Of a stretch of 64,000 nt of DNA, positions 53 to 16,602 are shown piece after piece (position 1 is the stretch's first letter; each line of letters begins with the position of its first letter). The stretch is taken from NCBI RefSeq assembly GCF_008271465.1, contig NZ_VMDU01000007.1:1-64000 (forward strand). The letters are read 5' to 3'. This stretch comes from Tabrizicola flagellatus. GTDB lineage: Bacteria > Pseudomonadota > Alphaproteobacteria > Rhodobacterales > Rhodobacteraceae. The notes under the pieces are model-generated. The model saw nothing but the letters and a program-made list of their open reading frames with translations. It was not told the origin of the DNA and did not search any database. Made by a program: the position numbers and the translations under genes.

Positions 53-1009
53 TCAGGCCGAAAGGCCCGACAAGCCCAGGTTGCGGATAACCGAATCAAC
101 AGTCTCCTGCATCAGCCGCGCCACCTCGGGAGAGGGGGGCGTCGCCGGGTTGCCATCGGCCCGCAGCAGGGCATGGGGCAGGCCGACCGGGCTTTGCTGA
201 TAGAGCACCGCATGGTGGACCAGCGCCACGAGGTAGTTGCCGATGTCGTTGAGATGGATCACGTCCAGCGATCCGTCCTCGGCCCGGGCAAAGAGGTCGG
301 TCCGGTCGCGGACATTGCCCACGCCGCCCTGCGCCTCGACCGCGCGGACGAAGGCGGCCAGCACCTGGCCGGCGGGGATCAGGAAGATCCGCGTGCCTTC
401 CGGCAACCGTTCCAGCGCGGGGCCGAGGACGCGCGACAGCCAGTAGCGGTCGTGATCCAGGTCCAGCCGCTCCAGCCAGCCTTCGGGGTCGTCCAGCTGG
501 TGCCAGGTCTCGTAGAGATAGAGCCGCACATCGGGACGCGCCTTCAGCGCCTCGGCGGCCCAGCGGGCCAGATAGACCGGGCTGTCGTAGTAGCGGATCG
601 AAGCCCGGATCTCGACCATCTCGGTCAGCACGATCGCGTCGTAGTCGCCGCTCTGGACGGCTTCCAGCGCCGGGCGAAAGCGGGGGTGGGCGTTTTCCGC
701 CTCGAACCCGTTGATCGGCGCGTCGCCCCAATGCGCTTGCAGGGTCGTGCCCCAGCCGAGCTGGCTGTCGTAGCTGTGGCCGGCGGGAGCAAGCTGGGCC
801 ACCATCGCGGGCATGTCGCGGTTCACCAGGCTGTGGCCAAGGTGGAATACCGACAGAGGCTGATCCGGTTTCGGCACCGAAAACCCGGTCAGCCGGGTGC
901 GCACCGACTCTGCCGAGGGCGCGCGGGTCAGGTGCCAGTAGAGCCCGCCGGCGCCGATCGCCGAAAGCAGGCTGGACAGGATCGCCGTCCGTCGCGTCAT
1001 CATCGTCAC
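53..1009 (-). CDS. SGNH/GDSL-type hydrolase-like protein, last gene of the PKS/NRPS operon
   Basis: A 318-residue protein, probably an esterase or acyl-transfer enzyme of the SGNH fold, substrate unknown. The N-terminus has twin Arg and a hydrophobic stretch (about residues 6-26), which suggests a membrane anchor or exported protein. Near residue 57 the motif HLGHSLVNRDMP resembles block I of SGNH hydrolases (Gly-x-Ser), and near residue 260 DVIHLNDIGNYL could supply the Asp and His. The start overlaps the end of the phosphopantetheinyl transferase gene by 4 bases, so it is almost certainly co-translated with the biosynthetic genes. It might release, deacylate or transfer the PKS/NRPS product. 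The family call rests on two short motifs. It could be a more distant hypothetical family. Confidence 0.72.
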   Translation of the reverse strand: MTMMTRRTAILSSLLSAIGAGGLYWHLTRAPSAESVRTRLTGFSVPKPDQPLSVFHLGHSLVNRDMPAMVAQLAPAGHSYDSQLGWGTTLQAHWGDAPINGFEAENAHPRFRPALEAVQSGDYDAIVLTEMVEIRASIRYYDSPVYLARWAAEALKARPDVRLYLYETWHQLDDPEGWLERLDLDHDRYWLSRVLGPALERLPEGTRIFLIPAGQVLAAFVRAVEAQGGVGNVRDRTDLFARAEDGSLDVIHLNDIGNYLVALVHHAVLYQQSPVGLPHALLRADGNPATPPSPEVARLMQETVDSVIRNLGLSGLSA

Positions 1010-1662
1010 CGTGTCACCCCTGCCAGAACCAGACCCTCGACCAGAGCCAGCCGGCCCCGCACCCTGTCGCCGGTGCGGAAGGCCCCGGCATCGGTCAGGA
1101 ACTGGGCATCGAAGCCGTCCTCGGCAAGGGTCAGATGCACCGCATCAAAGCCGAACATCGCCCGCGCACCCTGTGCCTGCGCCTTGAACAGCGCCTCCTT
1201 CGCCGCGAAGAGCCGGCGCAGCCAGAGCCCCGGCTCCCCCGCCGGCAGCGCGGCACGTTCGGCGGCCGAGGCGATCTCGGGCCAGATCTCGGGCGCGAGC
1301 GGTTCGTCCGGCTCGACATCGACCCCGATCGGACCCCCGCGCCGGACGACGGCCACGGCCAGACCGGCCGAGTGCGAGATCGAGCCGGAGATGCCCTCGG
1401 GCCACAGCGGGGATCTGTCGGGCAGGCGGGGCAGCACGACCGGCGGCAGGCCGAGCGCAGAGAGCGCCTGGCGCGCCGCCTGGCGTCCGGCGGCGAATTC
1501 GCTGACCCGACGCGGCACCGCCCTGGCGACGGCCGCGCGTTCCTCGGGCCAGAGCGCCCCGGGGTCGGCGGCGGCAAGGTTGCAGACCGCCACCGAAACC
1601 CCGGCCGGGAACAGGTCGGCCAGCGCCTGCCCGACCCGGCCGAGCCGCAGCGGAGCGGTCAT
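1006..1662 (-). CDS. 4'-phosphopantetheinyl transferase (EntD/Sfp type)
   Basis: Transfers the phosphopantetheine arm of CoA to the serine of carrier domains and so activates the ACP and peptidyl-carrier domains of the two megasynthases upstream. Hallmarks of the 218-residue protein are SISHSAG (about residue 95), GVDVEP (about 113, Mg-binding Asp/Glu) and FAAKEALFKA (about 151, WxxKEAxxK-like motif). Length is normal for the EntD class. The start overlaps the NRPS stop (ATGA), and the 3' end overlaps the SGNH gene. A dedicated transferase inside the operon supports the cluster being functional and self-contained. Confidence 0.93.
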   Translation of the reverse strand: MTAPLRLGRVGQALADLFPAGVSVAVCNLAAADPGALWPEERAAVARAVPRRVSEFAAGRQAARQALSALGLPPVVLPRLPDRSPLWPEGISGSISHSAGLAVAVVRRGGPIGVDVEPDEPLAPEIWPEIASAAERAALPAGEPGLWLRRLFAAKEALFKAQAQGARAMFGFDAVHLTLAEDGFDAQFLTDAGAFRTGDRVRGRLALVEGLVLAGVTR

Positions 1663-4600
1663 CCCAGCGCCTTCTCCCGCGCCTCGCGCATGGCCCGGCG
1701 GCGCGCCATGGCATCCATCCGGCTGTCGGCGGCCCCGGTCGCGCCGGGCTGCGGCGCGGGCGCGGCGGCGACGGGCGCGGCAACCTGGGCCGGGATGGCC
1801 GACGCCTGCGGCAGCACCTTGGCGACATGTTCGGCCAGCGTCGAGACGACCGGGAAGCGGAAGATGTCGGTGATCGCGATCCGGTCGGAGTTCAGCGCCA
1901 CCTTCAGCTCGCGGTGCGCCTGCACCGCCAGAAGCGAATGGCCGCCAAGGGTGAAGAAATTGTCCGACCGCCCGACCTGCGGCACGCCGAGGACGCGGGC
2001 GAAGACGGCGGCGATGGTGGCCTCGACCCCGCCTTCCAGCGGCGCGACGGCCTTGGTGGCGGCGGGGGCGGCGGCGGCGTGGGGGGAGGGCAGGGCCTTG
2101 CGGTCCACCTTGCCGTTCGGGGTCAGCGGCATCGCCTCGAGCCGGACGACATGGGCGGGGACCATGACCTCGGGCAGGTGCGCAGACAGATCCCGGCGCA
2201 GCGCCTGCTCGTCCACCGGGCCATCGGCGGTGACATAGGCCACCAGGCGGACATCGCCGGGCTGATCCTCGCGGGCGATGACCACGGCCTGCCGGATCCC
2301 GGCCATCGCTTCCAGCGCGGTCTCGATCTCGCCCAGTTCGATCCGGTGGCCGCGGATCTTGACCTGGAAATCGGCCCGGCCGAGGTAGTCGAGCTTGCCG
2401 TCAGGCCGCCTGCGCACCAGATCGCCGGTGCGATACATCCGCCCCCGACCGGCAAAGGGATCGGGGCGGAAACGGTCGGCGGTCAGGTCGGGGCGCCGGA
2501 AATAGCCCTGCGCCACGCCCTCGCCGCCGATCCAGAGCTCTCCGGCCTCGCCATCGGCGACCGGGGACTGGCTGTCGTCCAGCACATAAAGCGCCGTGTT
2601 CGCAATGGGTTGTCCGATGTTGACCACACCCTCTGCCCCGGTTGTCGCCTCGACCGAGGACCAGATCGTCGTCTCGGTCGGGCCATACATGTTCAGCACC
2701 GGCCCGCCGATCAGCCCCGAGAGATCGCCGGCCAGGCGACCCATCAAGGCCTCGCCTCCGACCAGCATCCGCTTCAGCCGCGACAGCGCCGCACGGGCGC
2801 CGGGATCCTCGGCCAGCATCCGCGCCATCGAGGGCGTGCATTGCAGGTGCGTCACCCCGTGGCGGTGGATGAGACCGGCCATCGAGTCATCGGCCTCGGC
2901 CCCGGAGTTCGTGATCCGCAGGACCTCGGCCACATGTTTCAGCCCCTCCAGCACCACGGGCGTTGCGATGCCATAGTCGATGAGGCAGGCCACCTCGTCG
3001 ATGTCGATGGCCTTCAGTTCCTCGACGCGCTTCACCGCATCCTCGACCGTGCCGAACAGGCCCGAGTCCTCGAAATAGCGTTGGAAGGCGAAATCGAGGA
3101 TCGCCTCCATCTCGTCCGGGGCCAGCGACCGGAGGTCGATATCCATGGGATTGGCCACCCCTTGCGGCTTCTTGAAGGCCGGGAAGGCCCAGGCGTATTG
3201 CTTGATCAGCCCGGCCGCCGAGCGCAGGTAGCTTTTCATCGGCTCGCGCGCGACTTCGCGCGCCGTCTCGCGGTCGCTGGCGAGGAAGGTGTGCAGCATC
3301 AGCGTGACCTTGAAGCGCGACGGGTCGTGACCCGCCTCGGCCAGCGCGGCGCGGTAGAGCTTCACCTTGTCCGCGACCTCGGCAATCGACTGGCCGAGGA
3401 GGTGGGTGAGCACATGCGCACCCGCCTTGCCGGCATCGCGCCAGGTTTCGGGGTTGCCCGCGGTGGTGACCCAGGCCTCCACTTCCCTCGATACGGGGCG
3501 CGGCTGGGTCCTGACGGCAAAGGGCGTGCCATCCTTGCGCGGGAAGTCCACTGCCTCGCCGCGCCAGAGCTTGCGCACGGCGTCAAGCGAGTCGAACAGC
3601 GCCTGGCGGTTGGCGGGTGGAGTGTTCTCGGGCCGCAGCACGAAGTCGTCCGGCTGCCAGCCCGAAGCGAAGGCCAGGCCCGCGCGACCATTGGTCAGAT
3701 TGTCGATGACAGCCCATTCCTCGGCAATCCGGGCGGGATGGTGCAGGGGGGCAACGATGCTGCCGGCGCGCACGCCGATGTTCTTCGTCACGGCGGCCGC
3801 CGCCGCGCCGGTGACCGAAGGGTTCGGGTAGGGGCCGCCGAAGGCATGGAAATGGCGCTCTGGCGTCCAGATGGCGACAAAGCCGTTCTGGTCGGCGAAT
3901 TTTGCGCCTTCCAGCAACAGTTCATACTTCGACGGACCCGGCAGGTCGTCGTTGCCCCAGTAGTAGACGCTGAATTCCATCTTCCGCGGGCTGATCCCGT
4001 TGCCTCCCCCTGATCCGGCCGAGGGACGGACCCGGGCGCTGTCATCGGCCAGGACGACCGTAAAGCCGCGGGTCAGGGTCCAGAACAGCTCCAGCACCGA
4101 GATGTCGAAGCTCAGCGAGGTGACGGCCAGCCAGGTGCCGGGATCGGTGCCCAGCACGTCGTCCATACCGGCGAAGAAATTCATCGCGTTGCGGTGGGTG
4201 ACGACCACTCCCTTGGGCCGGCCGGTGGAGCCGGAGGTGTAGATCACATAGGCAGGGTCCTCTGCGGTCGGACCATCGGCGGGGGGCGCAGCGGGGGCCG
4301 CCGCAAGCCGCGGATCGGTGTCGAGGACCAGACGCGCGGGGCCGTGCGGCAGGGCCTCGGCCACAGCGCTTTCGGTCAGGATGACGGGGCACCCCGAATC
4401 CTCGGCGTAAAGCGCCAGGCGGTCGGCGGGATAGGTCGGGTCCATCGGCACATAGGCCGCGCCGGCCAGCTGGATGCCGAGTGCGCCGGCCACCATGTCG
4501 GTCGTCCGCCGGCAGGCCAGGCCGACCAGCGTGCCGCGCCCGACGCCCAGCCCGCGCAGGGTGTTCGCGATCCGGCCTGCCCGGTCGGCCAGCTGAGAGT

Positions 4601-6245
4601 AGGTCAGCCGCGCCTCGCCCGCGACAACGGCGGTCGCCTCCGGCGTGCGCATGGCCTGCGCAAGGATCGCGCCGGGCAGGGTGGCCTGCCGGTCGTAGTC
4701 GCGCCGCGTGGCAGCAAGAGCCCCGGCATAGACCCTGGTCTCGGCCTCGGACAGCGGGCTGATGCCGGACAGATCGGCCTCGGGTGTGGCGGCCATCCTG
4801 GCAAGGACACGGGCGATGCGCTCGGCCAGCCGGGCGGCCTCGGCGGCGGGCAGGCGGGCGGCGTCGTGCCAGAGCGTCGGCGTGGGGCCGGTGGTGATGG
4901 TGACGGTGCTGCCGGCCAGCGGGGCGGTGCCCTCGCCCAGGGCGAGGCCAGAGGGCGACAGCGCGGTCAGGCCGGGCTCGCGCAGGGCGAGGTCGGCTGC
5001 GATGCCCCCGGCGGCGCGGGCGGCATCGAGCGCGCGGCTCGCGCGGGCCTCGGCCTCGGCCAGGGGGCCGGTTGCGTCGAGCCGGACCGGCACCCAGGGC
5101 AGAAGATAGCCCGGTGCGCGGTCCGCGCCCAGGCCCAGGGCGAGATCGCCCCCACTGCGGCCAAGCGCGCAGAGGGCGGCCAGCGCCAGGCGGGCAGGCT
5201 TTGCTTCGGGACCGTCGAGCTGGATCTGACGCCAGTCCTGCGCGGCCGAATCCGCTGATGCCAGCGCCGGATCGGGGTGCAGGAGCAGACCGCGCAGCCG
5301 TGCCTCGGCCTCGGCCGCGGGGGCTAGGGCTGCGTCAAGCCGGGCGGTTTCGGCGGCATCGGGCGAGGGCAGCAGGGCGCCGGCCCGGGCGGTGTCGATC
5401 GGCAGACCCTTCAGGCAGGTCAGCCGCGACAGGCGCACCGCGCCCGAACCGCAGGCCACCGTCACGCTGTCGGCATCGCGCGCCAGCACCGCGCCCGGCA
5501 CGCCCGAACCCGCGACGACCTCGGCCAGGCCCACGGCCCAGACCTGTCCCGCGGCCTCGACCTTGGGCACGGCAAGCGGGTTGCGGTAGCCGCCATGGTC
5601 GAGCGCCCGCACCCGGCGGGCGACCGCTTCGGCAGGTTGCGCAAAATCCAGCCGTCCGGCGGCAGAGGGCCGGTCCGACCGCATCCAGACCTTGCGCGGG
5701 CCGGGGGCTTGCGGCTGGCGTGGCTGGCCGCCCGCCTCGAGTGCCGCGATGACATCGGTGAAACTGTCCAGCGCCGCGCTGAAGCAGCGGGCGTTCAGGG
5801 TGAAGGCGGTGTCGTCCGGCTCGATCGCGAAGGAGCGGGTGGCCAGCACCTCGCCCTCGTCGATCCCCTCGGTCATCAGATGCCAGGTGACGGCGTGTGC
5901 CGTCTCGCTGTTCAGGATCGCCCAGACTGGCGCGTTCAGACCGGCGTAACCGGGCAGCGGGCCGTCGTGGAAGTTGACCCCACCCTTCCGGGCCAGCGCC
6001 AGGACCGGCGCCGGCACCAGCGACAGGTTGGCGACCGATAGCAGCCAGTCGACCTCCAGGCCCGCCGTGCGCTCGACCAGGCCAGCGCCCGGTGCGATGA
6101 CCCGCAGCCCCGCGCCCGCGGCCCAGGCCGCGACCCTGGGCTCGCGCGTGACCACCGCGGCAAGCCGATGACCCCGCTCCAGCCAGCGCTTGCCGCATTC
6201 GACTGTCAGGCTTTCGTTGCCGATCAGCAGGGCGGTCAGGGTCAT
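1659..6245 (-). CDS. NRPS: formyltransferase - condensation remnant - adenylation domain with inserted luciferase-like monooxygenase - carrier domain
   Basis: A 1528-residue non-ribosomal peptide synthetase module. Residues about 1-290 are a methionyl-tRNA-formyltransferase-like domain with the Asn/His of NFHDGPLPGY and the Asp of EGIDEGE. Residues about 320-510 resemble the C-terminal half of a condensation domain without HHxxxDG. The adenylation domain begins about 535 (YTSGSTGRPKG about 668), is broken at about 735-1110 by a luciferase-like FMN monooxygenase (start MEFSVYYWGNDDLPGPSKYE), and resumes at LIHRHGVTHLQCTPSMARML. A carrier domain (LGGHSLLAV, Ser about 1435) and a basic helical tail follow. 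Such inserted monooxygenases are known as the MupA/Atu3671 type. There is no thioesterase. The chosen ATG has a GGAGA ribosome site 7 bases ahead and lies 13 bases after the PKS stop; an upstream ATG at 6272 would overlap the PKS gene. The substrate amino acid cannot be read by eye. Confidence 0.92.
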   Translation of the reverse strand: MTLTALLIGNESLTVECGKRWLERGHRLAAVVTREPRVAAWAAGAGLRVIAPGAGLVERTAGLEVDWLLSVANLSLVPAPVLALARKGGVNFHDGPLPGYAGLNAPVWAILNSETAHAVTWHLMTEGIDEGEVLATRSFAIEPDDTAFTLNARCFSAALDSFTDVIAALEAGGQPRQPQAPGPRKVWMRSDRPSAAGRLDFAQPAEAVARRVRALDHGGYRNPLAVPKVEAAGQVWAVGLAEVVAGSGVPGAVLARDADSVTVACGSGAVRLSRLTCLKGLPIDTARAGALLPSPDAAETARLDAALAPAAEAEARLRGLLLHPDPALASADSAAQDWRQIQLDGPEAKPARLALAALCALGRSGGDLALGLGADRAPGYLLPWVPVRLDATGPLAEAEARASRALDAARAAGGIAADLALREPGLTALSPSGLALGEGTAPLAGSTVTITTGPTPTLWHDAARLPAAEAARLAERIARVLARMAATPEADLSGISPLSEAETRVYAGALAATRRDYDRQATLPGAILAQAMRTPEATAVVAGEARLTYSQLADRAGRIANTLRGLGVGRGTLVGLACRRTTDMVAGALGIQLAGAAYVPMDPTYPADRLALYAEDSGCPVILTESAVAEALPHGPARLVLDTDPRLAAAPAAPPADGPTAEDPAYVIYTSGSTGRPKGVVVTHRNAMNFFAGMDDVLGTDPGTWLAVTSLSFDISVLELFWTLTRGFTVVLADDSARVRPSAGSGGGNGISPRKMEFSVYYWGNDDLPGPSKYELLLEGAKFADQNGFVAIWTPERHFHAFGGPYPNPSVTGAAAAAVTKNIGVRAGSIVAPLHHPARIAEEWAVIDNLTNGRAGLAFASGWQPDDFVLRPENTPPANRQALFDSLDAVRKLWRGEAVDFPRKDGTPFAVRTQPRPVSREVEAWVTTAGNPETWRDAGKAGAHVLTHLLGQSIAEVADKVKLYRAALAEAGHDPSRFKVTLMLHTFLASDRETAREVAREPMKSYLRSAAGLIKQYAWAFPAFKKPQGVANPMDIDLRSLAPDEMEAILDFAFQRYFEDSGLFGTVEDAVKRVEELKAIDIDEVACLIDYGIATPVVLEGLKHVAEVLRITNSGAEADDSMAGLIHRHGVTHLQCTPSMARMLAEDPGARAALSRLKRMLVGGEALMGRLAGDLSGLIGGPVLNMYGPTETTIWSSVEATTGAEGVVNIGQPIANTALYVLDDSQSPVADGEAGELWIGGEGVAQGYFRRPDLTADRFRPDPFAGRGRMYRTGDLVRRRPDGKLDYLGRADFQVKIRGHRIELGEIETALEAMAGIRQAVVIAREDQPGDVRLVAYVTADGPVDEQALRRDLSAHLPEVMVPAHVVRLEAMPLTPNGKVDRKALPSPHAAAAPAATKAVAPLEGGVEATIAAVFARVLGVPQVGRSDNFFTLGGHSLLAVQAHRELKVALNSDRIAITDIFRFPVVSTLAEHVAKVLPQASAIPAQVAAPVAAAPAPQPGATGAADSRMDAMARRRAMREAREKALG

Positions 6246-6258
6246 GTCGGTCTCCGGG

Positions 6259-9200
6259 TCATTCGGCTGCAAGTCTTTGGGCGGACGGGCGGGTTTCGCC
6301 AGCCTCGGCCGCCTGGATCGCGGCCTTCATCCGTGCGGCAAGAACGCGCACGTTGGGTTCCAGCACCATGGAATCGTGGTCGCCCGGCACCTCGACCACC
6401 TCCAGCCGGGGGGCGAAGGGGGTCCAGAGGTTGTCGTGGAAGACGTATTCCCGCGCCTTGGACACCCAGTTTCCGCCCGTCACCTTGTAGTGGCGGTCCA
6501 AGGGCGGGCGGTAGAGGACCACATTCCCGTCCTCCCACCGCTTCAGCTGGTAAACCCCGATAGCATGGCGGAAGGCGGCCTCGATGGCGGCGTTGTTGTA
6601 GGAGGGCACGGTCGGGTCGGGCTCGTTCGCGGCCTTGGCGCGGCGCGAGCGTTCCCATTCCCAGCGCCGACGCGCCCATTCCGCCAGGAACTTCGGCCCG
6701 CCAGCGCGAAGTTCAGCCAGCTTGATCAGGGCCTTGTCCGGCTTGGTCAGGAAGGGCCGGACGGGCAGGGGCGTGTCGAGCAGGACCATCAGCGCGACCT
6801 CCTCGCCCTCGGCGCGCAACTGCCGGCCGATGTCCCAGGCCGTCAGCCCGCCGCCCGAGAAGCCGCCGAGCAGGTAGGGGCCTTTCGGCTGAACTTGCCG
6901 GATCTCGGCGAGGCAGGAGGCCGCGGCCTCCTCGATGGTCATGTGCGGCTTGTCGTCGCCGAAGAGGCCCTTGGCCTGAAGCCCGTAGAACGGCCGGTCG
7001 GTGCCCAGAAGGCTGGCAAGGTGGCGCAGGTTCAGCACGTTGCCGAACATGCCGGCGACCAGGAAGAACGGAGTCTTGGGCCCCCCCTCGCCCCGGTGCA
7101 TGGCGACGAGGTGGGTGAACTTCGGCCCCGCCGGATCGGCAAGCGCGGTCGGCGCCGGGGCGCTGTCGTCCTGCGGGCCGATGCGGTCGATGATGAGCTG
7201 GGCGCAGCGGGCGATGGTCGGGGCCTCGAACAGGACCGAGATCGGGAAGTCGACCTTCCACTGCCGCCGGATCATCGCGAAGAGGCGCACGGCGATAAGC
7301 GAGTGGCCGCCGAGCGCGAAGAAGTCGTCCTCCACCCCCACTTCGGCGACGCCCAGAAGCTCGGCCCAGAAGCCGGCAAGGGTGCGTTCGACGCTGTTCC
7401 GGGGCGCAACATAGGCGCTTTCCAGTTCGGGTCGTGCAAAGCCGGGGCCTTCGGTCTCTGCCGCAACCGGTGCGTTGGCCTGTTTCACCAGCGCCTCGAG
7501 ATCCAGCGAGGAGACAAGGACCTGCGCACCGTCTGCCGCAAGCGCTCGCAGGAAGGCCTCGGCGCCCTCGGCCGGGCGGATTCCGCCGGCAAGGGCCTGG
7601 GCAAGGCGCTGTTCGGCGGGGGACTGGCCGCGTTGGTCCTCGTCGCGGATCACGTCGCGCGGATTGGGCGGCTGCGGCTTGGCGAGCGCCTCCTCGAAGG
7701 CGACCTTGCGGAAGGTGATGCCCTCGACCTCGACCAGCACCTTGCCCGAGGGATCGGTCAGGGTGACATCGAAGCTGGCGGTATCCTCTGCGGGCGTGCC
7801 CGACAGGCGGACCCAGCTGCGGATTTCGGCGGGAAGCGGGCCATGGACCCGGATCGCGGTGGTCATCACCGGGGCCCAGACGAAGCCCTCGGCCACCTTC
7901 GGCAGAAGCGCGATGCCCCAGCCGGTGCCGATGTCGTAAAGCGCGGGGTGGATGGTGCAGGTGGCGGTGTCCTGCACGGCCTGGGTCGGAAGCGCCAGGG
8001 TTGCCAGCCCTTCCCGGTTGCCAAGCGCAGTCGCTTTCAGCACCTGCCAGCGCGGGCCGAAGGCGATCCGGTCTTCCTGCGCCGATGGCAGGGTCTCGCC
8101 CCCCGGAGCCGTGGCCTTGTCGGGGCAGCGCGCGGCGATGGCGGCGAGGTCGAGCGTTTCCGGTTGCGTCGTCAGGGGGGCCACGCCCATCTCGGCGGTC
8201 AGGGCCCAGCCCTGCGGCTCCAGCGCGCGGGCCTGCAGGCGCTGGCTGCCGTCGCGGGCCCGGGTGAGGCTGACGCGCAGGTCGCGCGGCAGGTCCGCCT
8301 CCAGCCGCAGGGGGCGGAAGACGGTCAGGTCGGTCAGGTGCAGGCCGCCCTTGAGGCCTGTGGCCATCAGCGCCTCGCTGGCGATCTCGGGGTAGGCCGA
8401 GCCGGGCAGGACCGCCGTGCCGTCCAGGAGGCGGTGGTCGTCCATCACCCACTGGTCCTTGGTCAGGGTGGCATGAAACCGGGTTTCATCCTCGCCTTTC
8501 TGCATCCGCTCGAGGACCAGTTGACCGGGCAGCGGCGTGCCCGCGTCCTTGCCCTGGCGTCGGGCGTCGGCGTCGGCGGCCATGCCGATGCCGGACCAGA
8601 TGCCCCAGTTGACCGAGGTGACCTTGGTCAGCCCGCCCGCGCGGGACTTGGCGAAGGCGTTGAGGTATTCGTTCGCCGCGACATAGTCGGCCTGGCCCGC
8701 CGGGGTCAGGACGGTGGAGGTGGAACTGAACAGCACGATCCGGTCCACCGAGCCGTCAGGGAGAAGCGTGTCGAGCAGTTTCGTGCCGTGGACCTTGGGC
8801 GACAGGACCGCGTCGGCGGACCCCGGGTCCTTGCCGAGGAGGGGGGCGTCATCGACGGTGCCTGCGGCATGGACGACGCCATGGATCGGGCCGAACTCGG
8901 CCCGGACGCGGTCGAAGGCGGCGCGCATCTCCTCGGGGTTGCAGACATCGGCGGCGACGGCCATCACGCGACCGAGGCGTTCGAGGCGCGACAGCACCCC
9001 GGCACGGACCGATCCCGGTTCGGGGACGTGGCGGCCGATGAGCGCAACCTTGGCATGACGGTCGCGCATCAGGCGTTCGGCCACGGTGACGCCGATCCCG
9101 CCAAAGCCGCCGGTGATGACCCAGACCGAGCCTTCGGGCACTTCGGCCTGATCGGGCAGTTTCGCCGGCACGAGGCGGGTTTCCAGTCTCCGGCCGCCCC

Positions 9201-12200
9201 GGATCGCGGCGACGGTATTTGCGGGGGTGGCCAGCATCTCTTCGATGACGGCGGAGACGGTTTCCGGCGCGATCTTCCTGTCGAGCGTCACATCCAGAAG
9301 GCTGGCGGTCAGCCCCGGCAGTTCGCGTGGCATCACGCGGACCGGGCCGGCGACGGTGGCTTTCTCGGGGTAGGGCAGCGCCTCGGTCCGCACCTGGGCC
9401 GCGCCCGAGGTGACGACGGTCAGGTGGGGCAGGGGTTTCAGCCCGATCTCGCCCATCGCCTGACCGAGGAAGAAGAGGCTCCAGAAGCCCTGTTCGAGGT
9501 TGCGCTGGAAGAAGGAGGAGCCGGGGCGGAAGGCCTCCTTTTCCGTGACCAGCCAGAAATGGGCGATCCGGGCGGGCGACAGGTCGCGCTGGGCGAGGTC
9601 GGCGAGAAGCGCGTCATAGCCCTCGCGCCCGTGTTCGGGGGCCAGCGTGTAGGTGTCGTCCGAGGTCCGGGCGAAGGCGTCGCCGGCGTGGACGGTGATG
9701 ACGCGGTGGCCGCCCGACCGCAGGCGCTGGACGGCGGCGCGGGCGAGGCCGGTCTCATCGGCGAAGACGAGCCAGGTCAGGGGATCGCCCAGTTCGGTTT
9801 CCACGTCCACCGGGCAGTCGGCGGGCATCACGCGCCAGCCGATCCTGTAGCCGAAGTCGGTCACGCTGTCGTGGCGGGCCGGGGTCAGGTCGGCCTCGGT
9901 CACCACGGCGGGTGTCCCGCGTTCGACGAAATAGCGGCTGCGCTGGAAGGGGTAGGTCGGCAGGGGGACGCGGCGGCGTTTCGCCTCGCCCCAGAGCTGG
10001 GTCAGGTCGGGTTCGGCCCCGCAGGCCCAGAGGCGGCCGAGGGTGGCGATGAAGTGGCGGTCGTCGCTGACGGTGTCGTCGGGGTGCCGCAGGCTGGCCG
10101 GGACCGGCTGGCCGCCCATCGCTCCGTTGGCTTGCGCGAGCGACGCCATGGCCCGGCCGGGTCCGACCTCCAGATACACGCGATCGGCCTTCTGGCGCAG
10201 CGTCGCCATGCCGTCGGCGAAGCGGACGGTGTTGCGCAGATGCGCGACCCAGTAGTCGGGGCTGGTCGCCTCGGCGTCCGTCAGGACCTGGCCGGTGCGG
10301 TTCGAGATGATCGGGATCTGCGGCGGCGAAAGCTGCATCCCCGCGAGGTGGGCACGGAAGGCAGGCAGGATGCCTTCCAGCATCCGCGAATGGGCGGCGA
10401 TGTCGATGGCGATGCGGGTGGTGTCGATGCCATCGGCCTTCAGCCGTTCCGCCAGGTCCTTGAGGCCCGCGTCGGACCCAGAGACCACGGTCAGTTCCGG
10501 CGCGTTGACCGAGGCGATGTCGAGATCGCCAAGGTAGGGTTTCAGCGCGGCCTCGGACAGCGGCACCGACAGCATCCCGCCCGCAGGCACGGTGTCGAAG
10601 AGTTCGCCCCGCTTGCGGACGAGTCCGACGGCGGCCTCAAGCGTCATCACGCCCGCCACGCAGGCGGCGGCGTTTTCGCCCATCGAATGCCCGATCAGGA
10701 CGGCCGGCCGGACGCCCCAGCTTTCCCACAGCTTCGCCAGCGCCACCTCGACGATGAGGATGAGGGGAAGCTGCTTCGAGGGCTGGCGCAGCGCCTCGGC
10801 CGCGGCCTGTTCCTGGCCCGGCGCGGGAAGCCAGAGCGCGCGGGTCTCGGCCTCGGCATCGCCCAGGGCGGCAAGACCCCGGTCCATCCATTCGGCGAAG
10901 ACGGGTTCGGTCTCGTAAAGGTCGCGCGCCATGTTTGGATATTGCGCGCCGCCGCCGGGGAACATGAAGACGACATCCGGGGCATCGCCCAGCCGCCGCT
11001 GGGTGAAGACGCGGCGGGGATCGCCGGCCTCGAGCATCTTCGCGGCTTCCTCGTGGGAGCCAGCGACCAGCACGCGCCGGTGTTCGAAGGCGCGGCGGCC
11101 TTCCTTCAGCGTCCAGGCGACATCGGCCAGGTCCTGTTCGGGATGGGCGCGCAGGTGCGCGGCAAGGCGTTGGGACGCCTCGCCCAAAGCCGACTGGCTG
11201 CGGGCCGAGAGCGTGATGAGTTGGAAGGGCCAGTCCGAGGGTTCGGAGGCCGCCACGGCAGGGGGTTCCTGCACGACGACAAAAGCATTGGTGCCGCCGA
11301 CGCCAAGCGAGTTCACGCCGGCGCGGCGGGGGCCCATGCGGCGGGGCCAGTCCGACAGCCTGTCGTTCACCCGGAAGGGGCTGTTGTCGAAGTCGATGGC
11401 GGGGTTCGGGGCCTCGAAGTTGAGGCTGGGCGGCATCTGGCCGTGGTAAAGTGCGAGAGTGGTCTTGATGAGGCTTGCGACCCCGGCGGCCGTATCGAGA
11501 TGGCCGATGTTGGTCTTGACCGACCCGATCTTCGCAAAGCCCGTGGCGTCCGTCGTGCGGCGGAAGGCCTCGGTCAGGGCGGCGACCTCGATCGGGTCGC
11601 CAAGATAGGTGCCGGTGCCGTGGCATTCGACATAGTCGATGGTTTCGGCAGGTGTCCCCGCGACGGCCAGGGCGGTGGCGACGCAGGCGGATTGGCCTTC
11701 CACGGACGGTGCCAGATACCCGGCCTTCGCGGCCCCGTCGTTGTTGACGGCGGACCCCTTGATGACGGCCCAGATATGGTCGCCATCGGCCAGCGCGTCT
11801 TCCAGCCGCCGCAACAGGACCGTGCCCGCGCCCGACCCGAAGACGGTGCCCTGTGCCCGGTGGTCGAAGGCATGGCAGACGCCATCGGGCGACAGGACCT
11901 CGCCCTCCTTGTAGAGGTAGCCGCGACCCTGGGGCAGGTCGATGGTCACGCCGCCCGCCAGCGCCATGTCGCATTCGCCGTTCAGAAGCGCCTGGATGGC
12001 ATAGTGCACTGCCACCAGCGAGGTGGAACAGGCGGTCTGGATGCCGAGGCTCGGCCCCTTCAGGTCGAAGACATGGCTGACGCGGGTGGACAGGAAATCC
12101 TTGTCGTTGCCGGTATGGCGGAGCAGGAACATGCCGGTGCTTTCCACCAGCGCCGGGTTCGAGCAGAGGTTGAAGTAGAAATAGCTGCCCATTCCGCAGC

Positions 12201-12582
12201 CCGCGAAGACGCCGATGCGGCCCTTGAACCCTTCGGGCGTATGGCCTGCACTCTCCAGCGCTTCCCAGGCGACCTCGAGGAACTGGCGGTGCTGCGGGTC
12301 GAGGATGGCGGCCTCCTTCGGCGAGAAGCCGAAGAATTCCGCGTCGAAGCGGTCGTAACCCTCCAGCAGGGCGGCCGCGGGGACGTAGTTCGGGTTGCGC
12401 AGCACGGCCGGGCTTTCGCCCGAGGCAAGGATTTCCTCTTCGGTCAGCCGGCGCACGGCCGACCGGCCCTGGCGCAGGTTCTCCCAGTAGGCGGCGATAT
12501 CCGCTGCCCCGGGCAGATGCGCGGCCATGCCGACGATGGCGATATCCGTTTCTGCCGGAAGGTCCTGCATCGCGTCCTTCAT
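6259..12582 (-). CDS. Type I polyketide synthase, KS-AT-KR-DH-ACP-TE
   Basis: A 2107-residue single-module polyketide synthase. In order: ketosynthase (TACSTS, Cys about 184; ECHGTGTYLGDP about 322; TNIGHLDTAAG about 359), acyltransferase (GHSMGE, Ser about 632), ketoreductase (TGGFGGIG about 1157; FSSTSTVLTPAGQADY catalytic Ser/Tyr), dehydratase (HRLLDGTAVLPG about 1384 and HPALYDIGTG), carrier domain (LGGHSL, Ser about 1760) and thioesterase (GFSGGG about 1904, C-terminal GDHDSM). The ketoreductase precedes the dehydratase, the reverse of the usual order. There is no enoylreductase, so an alpha,beta-unsaturated product is expected. The start at 12582 has GAGAGG upstream and is followed closely by the KS; longer forms add a non-homologous leader. 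First gene of the operon. Because it ends in a thioesterase, it probably acts last. Confidence 0.94.
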   Translation of the reverse strand: MKDAMQDLPAETDIAIVGMAAHLPGAADIAAYWENLRQGRSAVRRLTEEEILASGESPAVLRNPNYVPAAALLEGYDRFDAEFFGFSPKEAAILDPQHRQFLEVAWEALESAGHTPEGFKGRIGVFAGCGMGSYFYFNLCSNPALVESTGMFLLRHTGNDKDFLSTRVSHVFDLKGPSLGIQTACSTSLVAVHYAIQALLNGECDMALAGGVTIDLPQGRGYLYKEGEVLSPDGVCHAFDHRAQGTVFGSGAGTVLLRRLEDALADGDHIWAVIKGSAVNNDGAAKAGYLAPSVEGQSACVATALAVAGTPAETIDYVECHGTGTYLGDPIEVAALTEAFRRTTDATGFAKIGSVKTNIGHLDTAAGVASLIKTTLALYHGQMPPSLNFEAPNPAIDFDNSPFRVNDRLSDWPRRMGPRRAGVNSLGVGGTNAFVVVQEPPAVAASEPSDWPFQLITLSARSQSALGEASQRLAAHLRAHPEQDLADVAWTLKEGRRAFEHRRVLVAGSHEEAAKMLEAGDPRRVFTQRRLGDAPDVVFMFPGGGAQYPNMARDLYETEPVFAEWMDRGLAALGDAEAETRALWLPAPGQEQAAAEALRQPSKQLPLILIVEVALAKLWESWGVRPAVLIGHSMGENAAACVAGVMTLEAAVGLVRKRGELFDTVPAGGMLSVPLSEAALKPYLGDLDIASVNAPELTVVSGSDAGLKDLAERLKADGIDTTRIAIDIAAHSRMLEGILPAFRAHLAGMQLSPPQIPIISNRTGQVLTDAEATSPDYWVAHLRNTVRFADGMATLRQKADRVYLEVGPGRAMASLAQANGAMGGQPVPASLRHPDDTVSDDRHFIATLGRLWACGAEPDLTQLWGEAKRRRVPLPTYPFQRSRYFVERGTPAVVTEADLTPARHDSVTDFGYRIGWRVMPADCPVDVETELGDPLTWLVFADETGLARAAVQRLRSGGHRVITVHAGDAFARTSDDTYTLAPEHGREGYDALLADLAQRDLSPARIAHFWLVTEKEAFRPGSSFFQRNLEQGFWSLFFLGQAMGEIGLKPLPHLTVVTSGAAQVRTEALPYPEKATVAGPVRVMPRELPGLTASLLDVTLDRKIAPETVSAVIEEMLATPANTVAAIRGGRRLETRLVPAKLPDQAEVPEGSVWVITGGFGGIGVTVAERLMRDRHAKVALIGRHVPEPGSVRAGVLSRLERLGRVMAVAADVCNPEEMRAAFDRVRAEFGPIHGVVHAAGTVDDAPLLGKDPGSADAVLSPKVHGTKLLDTLLPDGSVDRIVLFSSTSTVLTPAGQADYVAANEYLNAFAKSRAGGLTKVTSVNWGIWSGIGMAADADARRQGKDAGTPLPGQLVLERMQKGEDETRFHATLTKDQWVMDDHRLLDGTAVLPGSAYPEIASEALMATGLKGGLHLTDLTVFRPLRLEADLPRDLRVSLTRARDGSQRLQARALEPQGWALTAEMGVAPLTTQPETLDLAAIAARCPDKATAPGGETLPSAQEDRIAFGPRWQVLKATALGNREGLATLALPTQAVQDTATCTIHPALYDIGTGWGIALLPKVAEGFVWAPVMTTAIRVHGPLPAEIRSWVRLSGTPAEDTASFDVTLTDPSGKVLVEVEGITFRKVAFEEALAKPQPPNPRDVIRDEDQRGQSPAEQRLAQALAGGIRPAEGAEAFLRALAADGAQVLVSSLDLEALVKQANAPVAAETEGPGFARPELESAYVAPRNSVERTLAGFWAELLGVAEVGVEDDFFALGGHSLIAVRLFAMIRRQWKVDFPISVLFEAPTIARCAQLIIDRIGPQDDSAPAPTALADPAGPKFTHLVAMHRGEGGPKTPFFLVAGMFGNVLNLRHLASLLGTDRPFYGLQAKGLFGDDKPHMTIEEAAASCLAEIRQVQPKGPYLLGGFSGGGLTAWDIGRQLRAEGEEVALMVLLDTPLPVRPFLTKPDKALIKLAELRAGGPKFLAEWARRRWEWERSRRAKAANEPDPTVPSYNNAAIEAAFRHAIGVYQLKRWEDGNVVLYRPPLDRHYKVTGGNWVSKAREYVFHDNLWTPFAPRLEVVEVPGDHDSMVLEPNVRVLAARMKAAIQAAEAGETRPSAQRLAAE

Positions 12583-12994
12583 GCCATTACCCTCTCGACT
12601 TGCCTTCCGTGGCATCCGCCAACCGGCGCACGGTCTGCCCCAGGGGCCGCTTGCAACAAGCGGTCCCGCGACCCGCACCGGCCCCGGGACAAATCTGCAC
12701 AATCAACACCACTCCACACCTTCCCGAAAACCGGGGACTGACCGGGACCATCAACGATTCGCGCGCCGTCAAAATTTCCTTGAGCTTTCCTACATGACTC
12801 CGGCTAGATACGCACGGACATTGGGAGAGAAAATGGCCATTTCAGGGGGAATCCAGACCCTACAGCGATGATTTCCCTACTTTGTTGCCGTAGCGGCATC
12901 AGTAGAGTGGAAGCCGTCGCCATGCCGTTGAAGTATGATTAAGACAGGGGTGCAAGAGACCGGAGGCCCCGGGAAATTGCTTAAGGGTGAGTGA
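12583..12994. promoter_or_regulatory. Divergent control region between the PKS operon and the exopolysaccharide module
   Basis: 412 bases without a gene. The part nearer the PKS is GC-rich and carries a hairpin/palindrome (12643-12667). The part nearer the plus-strand genes (about 12770-12990) is clearly AT-richer and should hold the promoters for one or both directions. A TATGAT hexamer near 12935 on the plus strand could be a -10 element but has no good -35 partner. I see no convincing small gene. Confidence 0.6.
12643..12667. repeat. 25-bp interrupted palindrome in the PKS leader
   Basis: Two 11-base arms (GGGGCCGCTTG and CAAGCGGTCCC) flank the triplet CAA; one of the 11 pairs is a G-T. 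It lies 60-85 bases upstream of the PKS start. It could be a dimeric-regulator operator or, if transcribed, a leader hairpin. There is no T-run, so it is not a classical terminator. Confidence 0.6.
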
Positions 12995-14089
12995 ATGACG
13001 CGCAGTAGGTCCCGGAAGTTGTTATCGCGCATCCTGTGGTTCGATCCGGATGCCGGAAACGCGCCGGATACGGTGCCGGAAACGGCGGACACTGCCGCAG
13101 ACACTATGCCGGACATCCCGACCTACCAGGATCGGAGCTTGGTCTCGACCCCTCCGCCCTCGTTCGTCGAATCACCCCGTCCCGCGGTGACGCGGGTTCG
13201 TTCGCGGCTCTTGCCGAACGAACCGCCCGTCGTGTCCACGCCGGATCTCTACACCGAACATTTCGGCCTGAAGGTGCGGCCCTTCGCCCTGACGCCGGAT
13301 CCGGATTTCCTGTTCTGGCCCCCCTCGCACCAGCGCGCCTACACGATGCTGGAATACGGCGTGCGCGCCCATGCCCCGATCACGCTGATCACCGGCGAGG
13401 TCGGCGCCGGCAAGACCACGCTCCTGCTGCACCTCGTGCGGTCGCTGGGATCCGAGCTTCGCGTCGGGCTGGTGTCGAACCCGCACGGCTCGCGCGCCGA
13501 GCTTCTGCGCTGGGTGCTGCATGCGCTGGAACAGCCGGCCGAGATCGAGGAAAGCTATGTCGATCTCTTCTCGCGCTTTCAGAACTTCCTTCTGGCCGAA
13601 TATGCCGCCGGCCGCAGCGTGGTGCTGATCTTCGACGAGGCGCAGAACCTGTCGCCCGAGGCGCTGGAAGAGCTGCGGATGTTCATCAATATCAACTCGG
13701 GCAAGGACGAGGTGCTGCAGCTGGTCCTGATCGGCCAGCCCGAGCTGCGAGAGATGGTTTCCCGGCCCGAAATGCGGCAGTTCGCGCAGCGCGTGGCGGC
13801 CAGCTATCACCTCGGCGCGATGGACCTCAAGACGCTGAGGGGCTATATTCCGCACCGGCTCAAGGTGGCAGGCTGCGAGCGTCGCATCTTCACGGCGCCG
13901 GCAATCGCGATGATCTACGAGCAGACCCAGGGCGTGCCCCGCCTGGTCAACCAGCTTTGCGACCTGGCGATGGTCTATGCCTTTACCAAGGGGCGGCAAC
14001 TGGTCACGCCGGCCATCCTGCAGCAGGTGCTGGATGATGGCGTGTTCTTTTCGGCATCTGCCCCACGCGAGACGAGTGAGAAGACCTGA
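12995..14089 (+). CDS. ExeA-like AAA ATPase of an exopolysaccharide module
   Basis: A 364-residue ATPase of the ExeA/general-secretion AAA family, often found beside polysaccharide export genes. Residues 1-85 form a low-complexity, Pro/Thr-rich extension. The core starts at YTEHFGLKVRPFALTPDPDF (about 85), typical of the family, then Walker A GEVGAGKTT (about 133) and Walker B VVLIFDEAQNL (about 207). I see no transmembrane helix and no C-terminal peptidoglycan-binding domain, which longer relatives carry. The start has an AGGGTGAG ribosome site. The stop abuts the next start directly (TGAATG), so the three plus-strand genes are one operon. Its likely role is ATP-driven control of polysaccharide assembly; its partner is unproven. 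Confidence 0.85.
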   Translation: MTRSRSRKLLSRILWFDPDAGNAPDTVPETADTAADTMPDIPTYQDRSLVSTPPPSFVESPRPAVTRVRSRLLPNEPPVVSTPDLYTEHFGLKVRPFALTPDPDFLFWPPSHQRAYTMLEYGVRAHAPITLITGEVGAGKTTLLLHLVRSLGSELRVGLVSNPHGSRAELLRWVLHALEQPAEIEESYVDLFSRFQNFLLAEYAAGRSVVLIFDEAQNLSPEALEELRMFININSGKDEVLQLVLIGQPELREMVSRPEMRQFAQRVAASYHLGAMDLKTLRGYIPHRLKVAGCERRIFTAPAIAMIYEQTQGVPRLVNQLCDLAMVYAFTKGRQLVTPAILQQVLDDGVFFSASAPRETSEKT

Positions 14090-15649
14090 ATGACGCTTGA
14101 TTTGCGTTTCTACCTTTCCCTGATCCTGCGTCGGCTTCCGATCATCGCCGCGATCATCTTCACGGCGACGACGGCGGGGATTCTCTATGCCGTATCGCTG
14201 CCGCCGGTGTTCCGCGCCGAGGCGCGGCTGCTGATCGAGAATGCCCAGATCCCGGACGAACTGGCCGCCTCGACGGTGCGATCGACCGCGGACGAGATCC
14301 TGCTGGCGATCCGGCAGCGGATCATGACCCGCGACAACCTCCTGGCGATCGCCGACCGGCACGACCTGTTCGCCGGTGCCACGAAGATGACGGCCGAACA
14401 GAAGCTGGTCGACATGGTCAGTCGCGTGTCGATCTACATGCCGAACACCCAGGGCAATACCGGGGTCGTGACCGTCTCCTTCGGCGCCTCGGAACCCGAG
14501 CTTTCGGCAAGCGTTACCAACGAGATCGCCGAGCAGATCGTGCAGTGGAGCACCGAGCTGCGCACCGGGGCCTCGGCCAGCACGCTGGATTTCTTCGAGC
14601 AGGAGGTCGAACGGCTGACCGAAGAGCTCGGCCAGCAGAACGCCAGGATCCTGGAGTTCGAGCAGGCCAACCGCGATGCGCTGCCCGAAAGCCTGGAATT
14701 CCGCCGCACCCGGCAGGCCGCCCAGCAGGAACGCCTGTTGCAGCTGGACCGTGATCTTGCCAGTCTGCGTGACCGCCGCCAGCGGCTGACCGAGCTCTAC
14801 GATCGCACGGGACGGGTGGTCACCACCGCCGACGCCCGCACGCCCGAAGAGGAACGCCTGGAACGTGCGCGGCAGGAACTGGCTTCTGCGCTGGTGGTCC
14901 TGTCGCCGACGAACCCGCGGGTCAGGGCCTTGCAGAACGAGGTCACCGCGCTGGAAGAGGCCGTCAAGGAACAGCGGGACGCCATTGGTGGCGGCCGGCT
15001 GACACCCTTCCAGGTGCAGATGCTGGACATCGACGGGCAGATCCAGTTCCTGGCCGAGCAGAAGGCGCAGATCGAGCAGGAGGTGAAGGATCTGGAACGC
15101 AGCATCCAGGCGACCCCCGGCAACTCGATCAAGCTGGCCGAATTGCGCAGCAACTACGAGACCTTGCGCGTCCAGTACGAACAGGCGGTCGCCAGTCTGT
15201 CCGAGGCCCGCATGGGCAACCGGATCGAGGCGACGGATCGCGGCCAGCGCATCACCATGATCGAGAAGGCCGTTCCGCCGGCCTTCCGGGCCGAACCGAA
15301 TCGCAAACGGATTTCGATCGCGGCCTTCGGGGCCGGGGTCATCCTGTCGGGTGCCCTGCTCTTCCTGCTCGAGGTGATGAACCAGACGATCCGGCGGCCG
15401 TCGGAACTGGCCAAGGTGATCGGGGCCCCGGCTTTCGGGACGGTCGGTGTGATCGAGGGCCCCCGCCCGCATCGGCCGGCCTTCTCGGGCAACCTGGCGC
15501 TGCTGGCGGTCTTCCTGATAAACATCCCGATCCTGATGCTGGTCGTGCACATCTACATCAAGCCGATCAACACTCTCTTCGGGCAGGCGACCCAGGGCCC
15601 AGATCCAAGCGAGGTCGCCGCCCCGGCGGCCTCTGGCAAGACCGAGTAG
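14090..15649 (+). CDS. Wzz/GumC-like polysaccharide chain-length determinant
   Basis: A 519-residue inner-membrane protein of the Wzz/GumC family that sets chain length and couples polymerisation to export. It has an N-terminal membrane helix (about residues 17-35), a long periplasmic part rich in coiled coil (about 165-370; many Glu/Gln/Arg heptads), then a second helix near 405-425 (GAGVILSGALLFLLEV). A third hydrophobic stretch (about 467-490) near the C-terminus is more than the two helices expected for a simple Wzz protein. It lacks a fused kinase domain; the kinase is the next gene, 6 bases downstream. No polymerase, flippase or outer-membrane channel is nearby. Confidence 0.88.
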   Translation: MTLDLRFYLSLILRRLPIIAAIIFTATTAGILYAVSLPPVFRAEARLLIENAQIPDELAASTVRSTADEILLAIRQRIMTRDNLLAIADRHDLFAGATKMTAEQKLVDMVSRVSIYMPNTQGNTGVVTVSFGASEPELSASVTNEIAEQIVQWSTELRTGASASTLDFFEQEVERLTEELGQQNARILEFEQANRDALPESLEFRRTRQAAQQERLLQLDRDLASLRDRRQRLTELYDRTGRVVTTADARTPEEERLERARQELASALVVLSPTNPRVRALQNEVTALEEAVKEQRDAIGGGRLTPFQVQMLDIDGQIQFLAEQKAQIEQEVKDLERSIQATPGNSIKLAELRSNYETLRVQYEQAVASLSEARMGNRIEATDRGQRITMIEKAVPPAFRAEPNRKRISIAAFGAGVILSGALLFLLEVMNQTIRRPSELAKVIGAPAFGTVGVIEGPRPHRPAFSGNLALLAVFLINIPILMLVVHIYIKPINTLFGQATQGPDPSEVAAPAASGKTE

Positions 15650-16527: not shown

Positions 16528-16602
16528 TGGAGCGGGCGATGAGATTCGAACTCACGACCCTAACCTTGGCAAGGTTATGCTCTACCCCTGAGCTACGCCC
16601 GC
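16528..16602 (-). tRNA. tRNA-Gly (GCC anticodon)
   Basis: A 75-base cloverleaf on the minus strand. It has acceptor stem GCGGGCG/CGCCCGC, D-arm with AGCTCAGGGGTAGAGC, anticodon loop TTGCCAA giving GCC, T-arm GTGAGTTCGAATCTCAT, discriminator T and an encoded CCA. Confidence 0.97.

Follow-up and report, generated by a model that had tools for sequence, protein, structure and literature searches.

A formyltransferase-primed NRPS-PKS pair with an oxygenase-interrupted adenylation domain in exopolysaccharide loci of Rhodobacterales, and its possible role in polysaccharide decoration

The window analysed here, a stretch of 64,000 nucleotides that forms the first 64 kb of contig C7 of Tabrizicola flagellatus, encodes a nonribosomal peptide synthetase (NRPS) laid out as formyltransferase, condensation (C) remnant, oxygenase-interrupted adenylation (A) domain and thiolation (T) domain, placed after a KS-AT-KR-DH-ACP-TE polyketide synthase (PKS) and before a 4'-phosphopantetheinyl transferase (PPTase) and an SGNH-like protein (Table 1). 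We read this system as a short NRPS-PKS line that may make an N-formyl-alpha-hydroxyglycyl-primed short acyl group as a decoration of exopolysaccharide (EPS), a reading whose chemistry and acceptor are deduced from the genes and which, in our judgment, falls just short of an even chance. A formyltransferase-primed pair in EPS loci appears to be undescribed as far as the literature searched extends; that literature, represented mostly by titles and abstract openings and by few subscription journals, gave no description of an EPS locus with a dedicated NRPS-PKS pair. The inserted oxygenase itself is a further example of the known A4/A5 glycine-monooxygenase kind and is, taken alone, ordinary. 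What sets the system apart is the formyltransferase at the N-terminus of the NRPS, the coupling to a PKS and the EPS setting, all of which the first-pass annotation of this DNA overlooked.

That annotation had recognized an FMN-dependent luciferase-like monooxygenase inside the A domain, and the profiles bear this out. The NCBIfam model TIGR04020 matches residues 767-1117 over model positions 1-340 of 341 with 474.1 bits against a curated cut-off of 244.45 (E 2.4e-142), and Pfam Bac_luciferase matches residues 782-1089 with 157 bits. The surrounding A domain is found by Pfam AMP-binding in two stretches (290 bits in all, the best at residues 538-747), by TIGR01733 with its best stretch at residues 1117-1331, and by AMP-binding_C at 1315-1388. 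The extent proposed for the insert, 2900-4070, encloses the oxygenase at 2922-3974, and the claim that no frame is lost agrees with the NRPS reading frame at 1659-6272, which is open throughout and 1,537 residues long when counted from its first TTG (an in-frame ATG at 6245 is, on sequence, the more likely start). This open frame and 123 homologous frames rule out a frameshift, a pseudogene or a chimera. The insertion site has to be moved, since the annotation had placed it between A3 and the A4-A5 region. FDIS, which we take to be the A4-type motif, precedes the insert and YGPTE, presumably A5, comes after it, so that the insert lies between A4 and A5; an insertion between A3 and A4 is ruled out by the same A4 motif, and the a8/a9 site of the solanimycin type was rejected for this A domain. 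The distance from FDxS to the insert is 33-49 residues and that from the insert to YGPTE is 77-92 residues in 120 of 123 frames, the other three being unreadable. The T domain forms the C-terminal end of the protein, and no TE was found on the NRPS by Pfam. As for the remark that most known A-domain insertions are methyltransferases, these are the commonest described kind according to a published account (PMC8949500).

Pocket residues DIL and M-I-W are present in all 109 readable distinct sequences (of 112, window included) and Q in 108; three of the 123 frames (L049, L139, and L151) give no pocket code. In alignment, the covered positions agree in type with the solved A domains 5u89 and 4zxh, which we take to be glycine-specific, and with the code read as we presume it should be, the predicted pocket is glycine-type in all 109 readable distinct sequences. 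The insert almost certainly belongs to the A4/A5 glycine-oxygenase type. An oxygenase frame is kept in 123 of 127 homologous loci (window included), each time with a formyltransferase in the same frame, which argues that the arrangement is neither chance nor decay; the loci were selected by the N-terminal part of the NRPS, and the informative point is the presence of the oxygenase. The records of the remaining four loci (L091, L099, L114, and L156) end 71-601 bases past the matched N-terminal part. Over 43 homologues the oxygenase has a mean identity to the window of 76%, the highest among the NRPS domains; the C remnant has 37%, and the remaining domains range over 54-66%. In the PKS, KS and ACP reach 79 and 77%, respectively.

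Two of the systems compared are the myxothiazol and melithiazol proteins, whose names we take to be MtaG and MelG. In these pathways, as reported, a monooxygenase lies between a4 and a5 of a glycine A domain and the alpha carbon is hydroxylated (PMC10204066), and the alpha-hydroxy intermediate is then cleaved (PMC10204066; PMC11342130). The window shares with them the A4/A5 oxygenase in a glycine-type A domain (PMC10204066). They cleave the oxidized glycine and release glyoxylate through a TE, whereas the window has the module in first position, behind a formyltransferase, and carries its TE on the partner PKS. Module 4 of SolF likewise pairs a flavin monooxygenase with an A domain predicted to take glycine, and the product solanimycin contains alpha-hydroxyglycine (PMC10204066), but the insertion there is at a8/a9 and the module is an elongation module of a larger line, so the window differs on both. 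Since two papers report hydroxylation of the glycine alpha carbon in the myxothiazol, melithiazol, and solanimycin pathways (PMC10204066; PMC11342130), the earlier description of the chemistry as mostly uncharacterized was too strong. The report on corallorazine counts 38 related clusters that carry the domain in glycine A domains (PMC11342130). The closest solved domain by sequence is the PuwE oxygenase (6ket, 348 bits), which sits between PKS and NRPS modules and not, as in the window, within an A domain; it is reported to act together with an aminotransferase in building a 3-amino-2-hydroxy acyl chain (PMC4219810).

The reading of 16 named plasmid loci with TIGR04020-like domains placed the oxygenase within an A domain in seven (Nostoc, two Streptomyces, Deinococcus, Burkholderia glumae, Methylobacterium, and Neorhizobium), the other nine having it stand-alone or in PKS or other frames. 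The outer code positions are DIL and M(I/V)W in six of the seven and DMV...MVW in one Streptomyces, with the middle positions not read reliably. In one Streptomyces plasmid locus a flavin reductase gene adjoins the oxygenase gene.

The formyltransferase domain matches Pfam Formyl_trans_N at residues 67-166 and Formyl_trans_C at 205-285, and N100-x-H102 and D138, which we take to be the places of the formyltransferase catalytic residues, are invariant in alignments of 17 and 42 rows. By profile it is a formyltransferase closest not to LgrA (51 bits) but to Fmt (124 bits) and ArnA (112 bits). Residues 300-525 have no significant Pfam match and no HHxxxDG motif in the translation as read, and profile positions 449-524 match the residues that lead into the A domain in McyB (8hlk, E 2.1e-7); we regard this region, judging by its residues, as a C remnant that is probably non-catalytic. 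With an N-terminal formyltransferase bearing N-x-H...D and no HHxxxDG C domain before the A domain, the arrangement is of the F-A-T type, as in the initiation module of LgrA (linear gramicidin), where an N-terminal formyltransferase is followed by A and T. The window differs from LgrA in its formyltransferase being nearer Fmt and ArnA, in the C remnant lying between, and in the interruption of its A domain.

The partner PKS has the KR preceding the DH, and an alignment of 41 PKSs, that of the window among them (fragments of 1,900 residues or less were excluded), shows conservation of the motif residues of KS, AT, KR, DH, ACP, and TE. A gap of 13 nt separates its stop from the ATG of the NRPS, and together with the 4-nt overlaps of NRPS with PPTase and of PPTase with the SGNH-like gene this suggests a single four-gene operon. 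The contig ends shortly after the SGNH-like gene and so truncates the operon; no flavin reductase is found among the four genes before that end, and four flavin-reductase-family matches occur elsewhere in the same genome. For the 318-residue SGNH-like protein of the window no Pfam or NCBIfam family was returned. Among 26 rows of its alignment, weak DUF4886 matches (E up to 1) occur in 14, the best at 3.2e-4, and Lipase_GDSL_2 in two; GHSL and D-x-IHLND motifs were seen by eye, its profile gave two chance-level matches only against solved structures, and hydropathy did not single out an N-terminal segment (1.41 vs. 1.88 elsewhere). The SGNH assignment is thus offered as a weak one.

Table 1. 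Features of the window discussed in the text (residue numbers refer to the NRPS protein).
Feature	Coordinates	Strand	Basis
SGNH-like protein, 318 aa	53..1009	-	First start codon overlaps PPTase stop by 4 nt
4'-phosphopantetheinyl transferase	1006..1662	-	Pfam 4PPT_N, ACPS; start overlaps NRPS stop by 4 nt
NRPS, whole gene	1659..6272	-	ORF; likely start ATG at 6245
Thiolation (carrier) domain, residues 1419-1483	1824..2018	-	Pfam PP-binding
Adenylation domain, post-insert part and C-terminal subdomain, residues 1118-1390, with YGPTETTIW	2103..2921	-	TIGR01733, AMP-binding_C
TIGR04020 FMN-dependent luciferase-like monooxygenase domain, residues 767-1117	2922..3974	-	NCBIfam, 474 bits
Adenylation domain, pre-insert part, residues 538-747, with TSGSTG and FDIS	4032..4661	-	Pfam AMP-binding; motifs in translation
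Condensation-domain remnant (probable), residues 300-525	4698..5375	-	Partial profile match; rest by eye
Formyltransferase domain, residues 12-290	5403..6239	-	Pfam; alignments
PKS KS-AT-KR-DH-ACP-TE, upstream gene	6259..12702	-	Pfam; motif residues in alignment
XrtA-type ATPase	12995-14089	+	TIGR03015, below curated cut-off
Chain-length determinant	14090-15649	+	TIGR03007, below curated cut-off
Tyrosine autokinase	15656-16459	+	TIGR03018, below curated cut-off

Divergent from this operon run three genes of an EPS system. Contig C4 of the same genome opens with the genes that come next in the relative G205 (15 of 17 ORFs matched, in order), for which the homologies point to polysaccharide export, an outer-membrane protein, glycosyltransferases, and WecG. 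The setting was counted over homologous loci of at least 19 kb (127 reduced to 108, of which 97 are distinct by oxygenase sequence), mostly with about 10 kb per side and in six cases with 20 kb. A PKS is present in all 97, a PPTase in 88, and an operon-type glycosyltransferase in 85, most members carrying the glycosyltransferase gene inside the operon. With a set of 14 EPS probe proteins, 95 of the 97 loci match one or more and 92 match two or more, three loci showing one probe only; when the operon glycosyltransferase is excluded, the figures are 95 and 73. Both loci at which the probes are absent (L065 and L087) fall in a divergent second clade of the oxygenase tree. One of 20 control stretches, chosen by hand in genomes of the sample, gave a match to one EPS probe. 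The probes were derived from the counted loci, and public annotation serves as the independent check. In five annotated plasmid loci, two from Ruegeria and one each from Paracoccus, Shinella, and Aminobacter, the pair lies amid polysaccharide genes, in sets that differ from plasmid to plasmid and draw on glycosyltransferases, sugar transferases, flippases, and export genes. The Shinella plasmid also has type I secretion genes near the pair, and that of Aminobacter a TolC-family gene.

The surroundings resemble XrtA-associated EPS loci in having glycosyltransferases, export genes, and a kinase around the pair, with flippase genes in several relatives. Among Wzx/Wzy-type parts, glycosyltransferases, a sugar transferase, and export genes are present, and the polymerase is only weakly identified (Wzy_C at 24.1 bits, below the 31.7 cut-off, in one member of the polymerase-like family A5, and no family in another). 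No Wzx flippase was identified in Tabrizicola, where an ABC transporter is found; flippases are named in other relatives. In Phaeobacter inhibens, Inhi_1972 (PKS) and Inhi_1974 (NRPS) are listed without a product in a genome paper (PMC4062626); from their gene numbering we infer that they are the same pair.

The same parts lie inside a capsule or polysaccharide region on one plasmid of Deinococcus actinosclerus, among a CapK-named gene, PGA_cap, Wzy_C, UDP-glucose 6-dehydrogenase, and sugar transferases. Here the formyltransferase is a stand-alone protein, 47% identical to that of the window over residues 75-242, and the A(oxygenase)-T protein shows 46% identity across some 950 residues. The PKS (38% identity) has the order KS-AT-KR-DH-ACP and, where the window has a TE, a terminal Condensation domain. 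That the formyltransferase occurs here unfused supports its belonging to the pathway. Since C domains at the end of a line normally link the chain to an amine or hydroxyl, that of Deinococcus fits transfer to an acceptor.

The distribution of the NRPS was followed with its N-terminal half, the oxygenase being checked in the 127 homologous loci. Residues 1-525 are strongly matched (E under 1e-30) in 71 of 198 family genomes representing 197 genera, by which a one-off occurrence is rejected, and in 64 of 149 genomes of an order sample that overlaps the family set. A class sample gave seven matches in 289 genomes, four of them being the genome of the window and family members and two of the other three covering the formyltransferase part only. 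A search of contigs matched at least 580 relatives, of which 80 were kept. Across the 198 family genomes the polymerase-like protein A5 occurs in 75 and the SGNH-like protein in 42. NRPS and A5 are both present in 66 genomes, NRPS only in five, A5 only in nine, and neither in 118 (Fisher p 3.5e-36); one of the nine (G028) holds an NRPS fragment short of the E-value threshold, and raising the A5 threshold to about 475 bits changes the counts to 62, 9, 1, and 126. The corresponding counts for NRPS and the SGNH-like protein are 40, 31, 2, and 125 (p 5e-20). The genomes are related and the Fisher values overstate their independence. An unrelated trait of similarly patchy distribution, the reaction centre of photosynthesis, is present in 84 of the 198 genomes and gave 31, 40, 53, and 74 against the NRPS (p 0.88) and p 0.88 against A5; nothing in this single control points to common descent by itself as a source of such associations. 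The distance between NRPS and A5 is within 30 kb in 52 of the 66 genomes; in three the genes share a contig at 55, 178, and 420 kb, and in 11 they are on different contigs. Some of these 11, the genome of the window among them, are probably assembly breaks; in G062 and G186 the contigs put the two genes at least about 34 and 72 kb apart.

The architecture, its conservation, the placement in EPS loci and the co-occurrence with a polymerase-like gene are direct observations, from which the following pathway is suggested. Glycine would be loaded on the carrier domain by the A domain, as its pocket indicates, and its nitrogen would be formylated by the formyltransferase; we read this as an initiation module because the A domain lacks a preceding C domain with an HHxxxDG motif. 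While on the carrier, the glycine would be hydroxylated at its alpha carbon by the inserted oxygenase, with FMNH2 from a separate flavin reductase, as may be expected from relatives that share the insertion site and the substrate. Malonate-derived carbon would then be added by the PKS, whose intact motifs are consistent with ketoreduction and dehydration, and the TE (in Deinococcus the terminal C domain) might transfer the resulting short acyl group, derived from N-formyl-(hydroxy)glycine, to an amine or hydroxyl of a sugar, this being the weakest step. The polymer would be exported by the machinery encoded alongside. A TE is also able simply to hydrolyse its product, which counts against transfer to EPS. 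By analogy with the characterized enzymes, alpha-carbon hydroxylation of the carrier-bound glycine seems likely, and we hold formylation of the same glycine to be equally likely. That the line is dedicated to EPS is to our minds also likely, an estimate lowered slightly from quite likely because assembly breaks may account for most of the different-contig pairs; for covalent attachment to a sugar we see an even chance. It is more tentatively, at somewhat less than an even chance, that we propose the whole as a new route of cell-surface decoration, in which a dedicated line, spread through Rhodobacterales, found in some Hyphomicrobiales and with a related form in Deinococcus, would install an N-formyl-hydroxyglycyl-derived acyl group, or a reactive carbinolamide, on EPS.

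A PKS that terminates in a TE would also suit a free secreted small molecule, such as a siderophore, a signal, or an antibiotic, with the EPS location an accident of synteny or shared regulation. So would the wide occurrence of TIGR04020-like domains in ordinary natural-product clusters, whether stand-alone, in PKSs, or in A domains (the palmerolide PKS is one natural-product example; PMC8739492), a divergent Aliiroseovarius relative in which a large NRPS/PKS comes next and no EPS probe matches, and the secretion-type genes in two of the five annotated EPS-type loci. We nevertheless consider a secreted product unlikely. The polymerase-like family accompanies the NRPS in 66 of 71 genomes, including the three with the genes 55-420 kb apart; to these the 11 different-contig pairs add G062 and G186 with their minimum distances, although some of the 11 are probably breaks. 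A second phylum holds the same parts in a capsule locus, and no product named as a siderophore receptor lies near the pair in the five annotated loci, whose gene tables are incomplete.

The line may instead serve EPS with a different oxygenase chemistry, which we judge improbable. The reported cleavage of the alpha-hydroxy intermediate in myxothiazol and melithiazol (PMC10204066; PMC11342130) would suggest cleavage to a glyoxylyl thioester as PKS starter, along the lines proposed for the myxothiazol module, but this would waste the formyl group, and solanimycin B retains its alpha-hydroxyglycine (PMC10204066). The other such possibility is N-hydroxylation to a hadacidin-like N-formyl-N-hydroxyglycyl group. 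A formyl group, glycine, and a flavin oxygenase would together fit N-formyl-N-hydroxyglycine, a known compound, but we know of no N-hydroxylation by this flavin class, which counts against it. Finally, the lack of a flavin reductase among the four operon genes before the contig end might be taken to mean that the oxygenase is vestigial and that the enzyme just loads formylglycine. This is very improbable given that the oxygenase is kept in all 123 loci reaching that part of the gene as the most conserved NRPS domain, and that flavin-reductase-family proteins are matched elsewhere in the genome.

If the proposed decoration of EPS is correct, natural-product assembly lines would tailor structural polysaccharides, beyond their role in secreted metabolites, in about a third of the sampled family genomes (71/198). 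This could account for roseobacter PKS and NRPS genes that genome papers give without a product, and it predicts unusual EPS substituents that are directly searchable. The pair would further provide a simple two-enzyme system for studying the A4/A5 glycine oxygenase.

Among the matches listed, the NRPS-PKS cluster is present in metagenome bins labelled Hydrogenophaga (two bins) and uncultured Burkholderiales (L150, L160, and L164), with oxygenases that are 76-77% identical. This occurrence reflects either transfer beyond Alphaproteobacteria or mis-binning. The cluster's parts are also present on a Deinococcus plasmid (L212, CP029777.1), inside a capsule locus where a GNAT/FemAB-like gene adjoins them; in contrast to the window, the formyltransferase is unfused in this locus and the PKS terminates with a Condensation domain. 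The formyltransferase-A(oxygenase) genes of L087 (NZ_CP081154.1), L065, L196, and L078 make up a divergent second clade; in its Aliiroseovarius member a 9.2-kb NRPS/PKS comes after the gene, which has nos genes as neighbours.

Within the window, a tRNA-Gly gene lies at the outer edge of the EPS-type genes, ahead of a pyruvate carboxylase-like gene, and possibly marks the locus boundary.

Coordinates of features in the window and in related loci
Feature	Sequence	Position
tRNA-Gly gene	window	16528-16602
Deinococcus plasmid locus (L212)	CP029777.1	265000-314000
Large protein near SGNH-like gene (cluster 10)	L072	754-3267

Large proteins of 576-965 aa (cluster 10, the L072 protein and relatives) are encoded close to the SGNH-like gene, and several 800-1000 aa frames match the SGNH-like profile a second time, more weakly; a Pfam search with one member found no family.

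A second, short TIGR04020 protein scores above the cut-off in five of the 32 genus genomes (G202, G210, G211, G212, and G213), in open frames of 375-419 aa that are not within any NRPS frame. In one Streptomyces locus (L199, NZ_CP108363.1), a gene with an A-inserted oxygenase is immediately followed by a flavin reductase gene, whose product may supply FMNH2.
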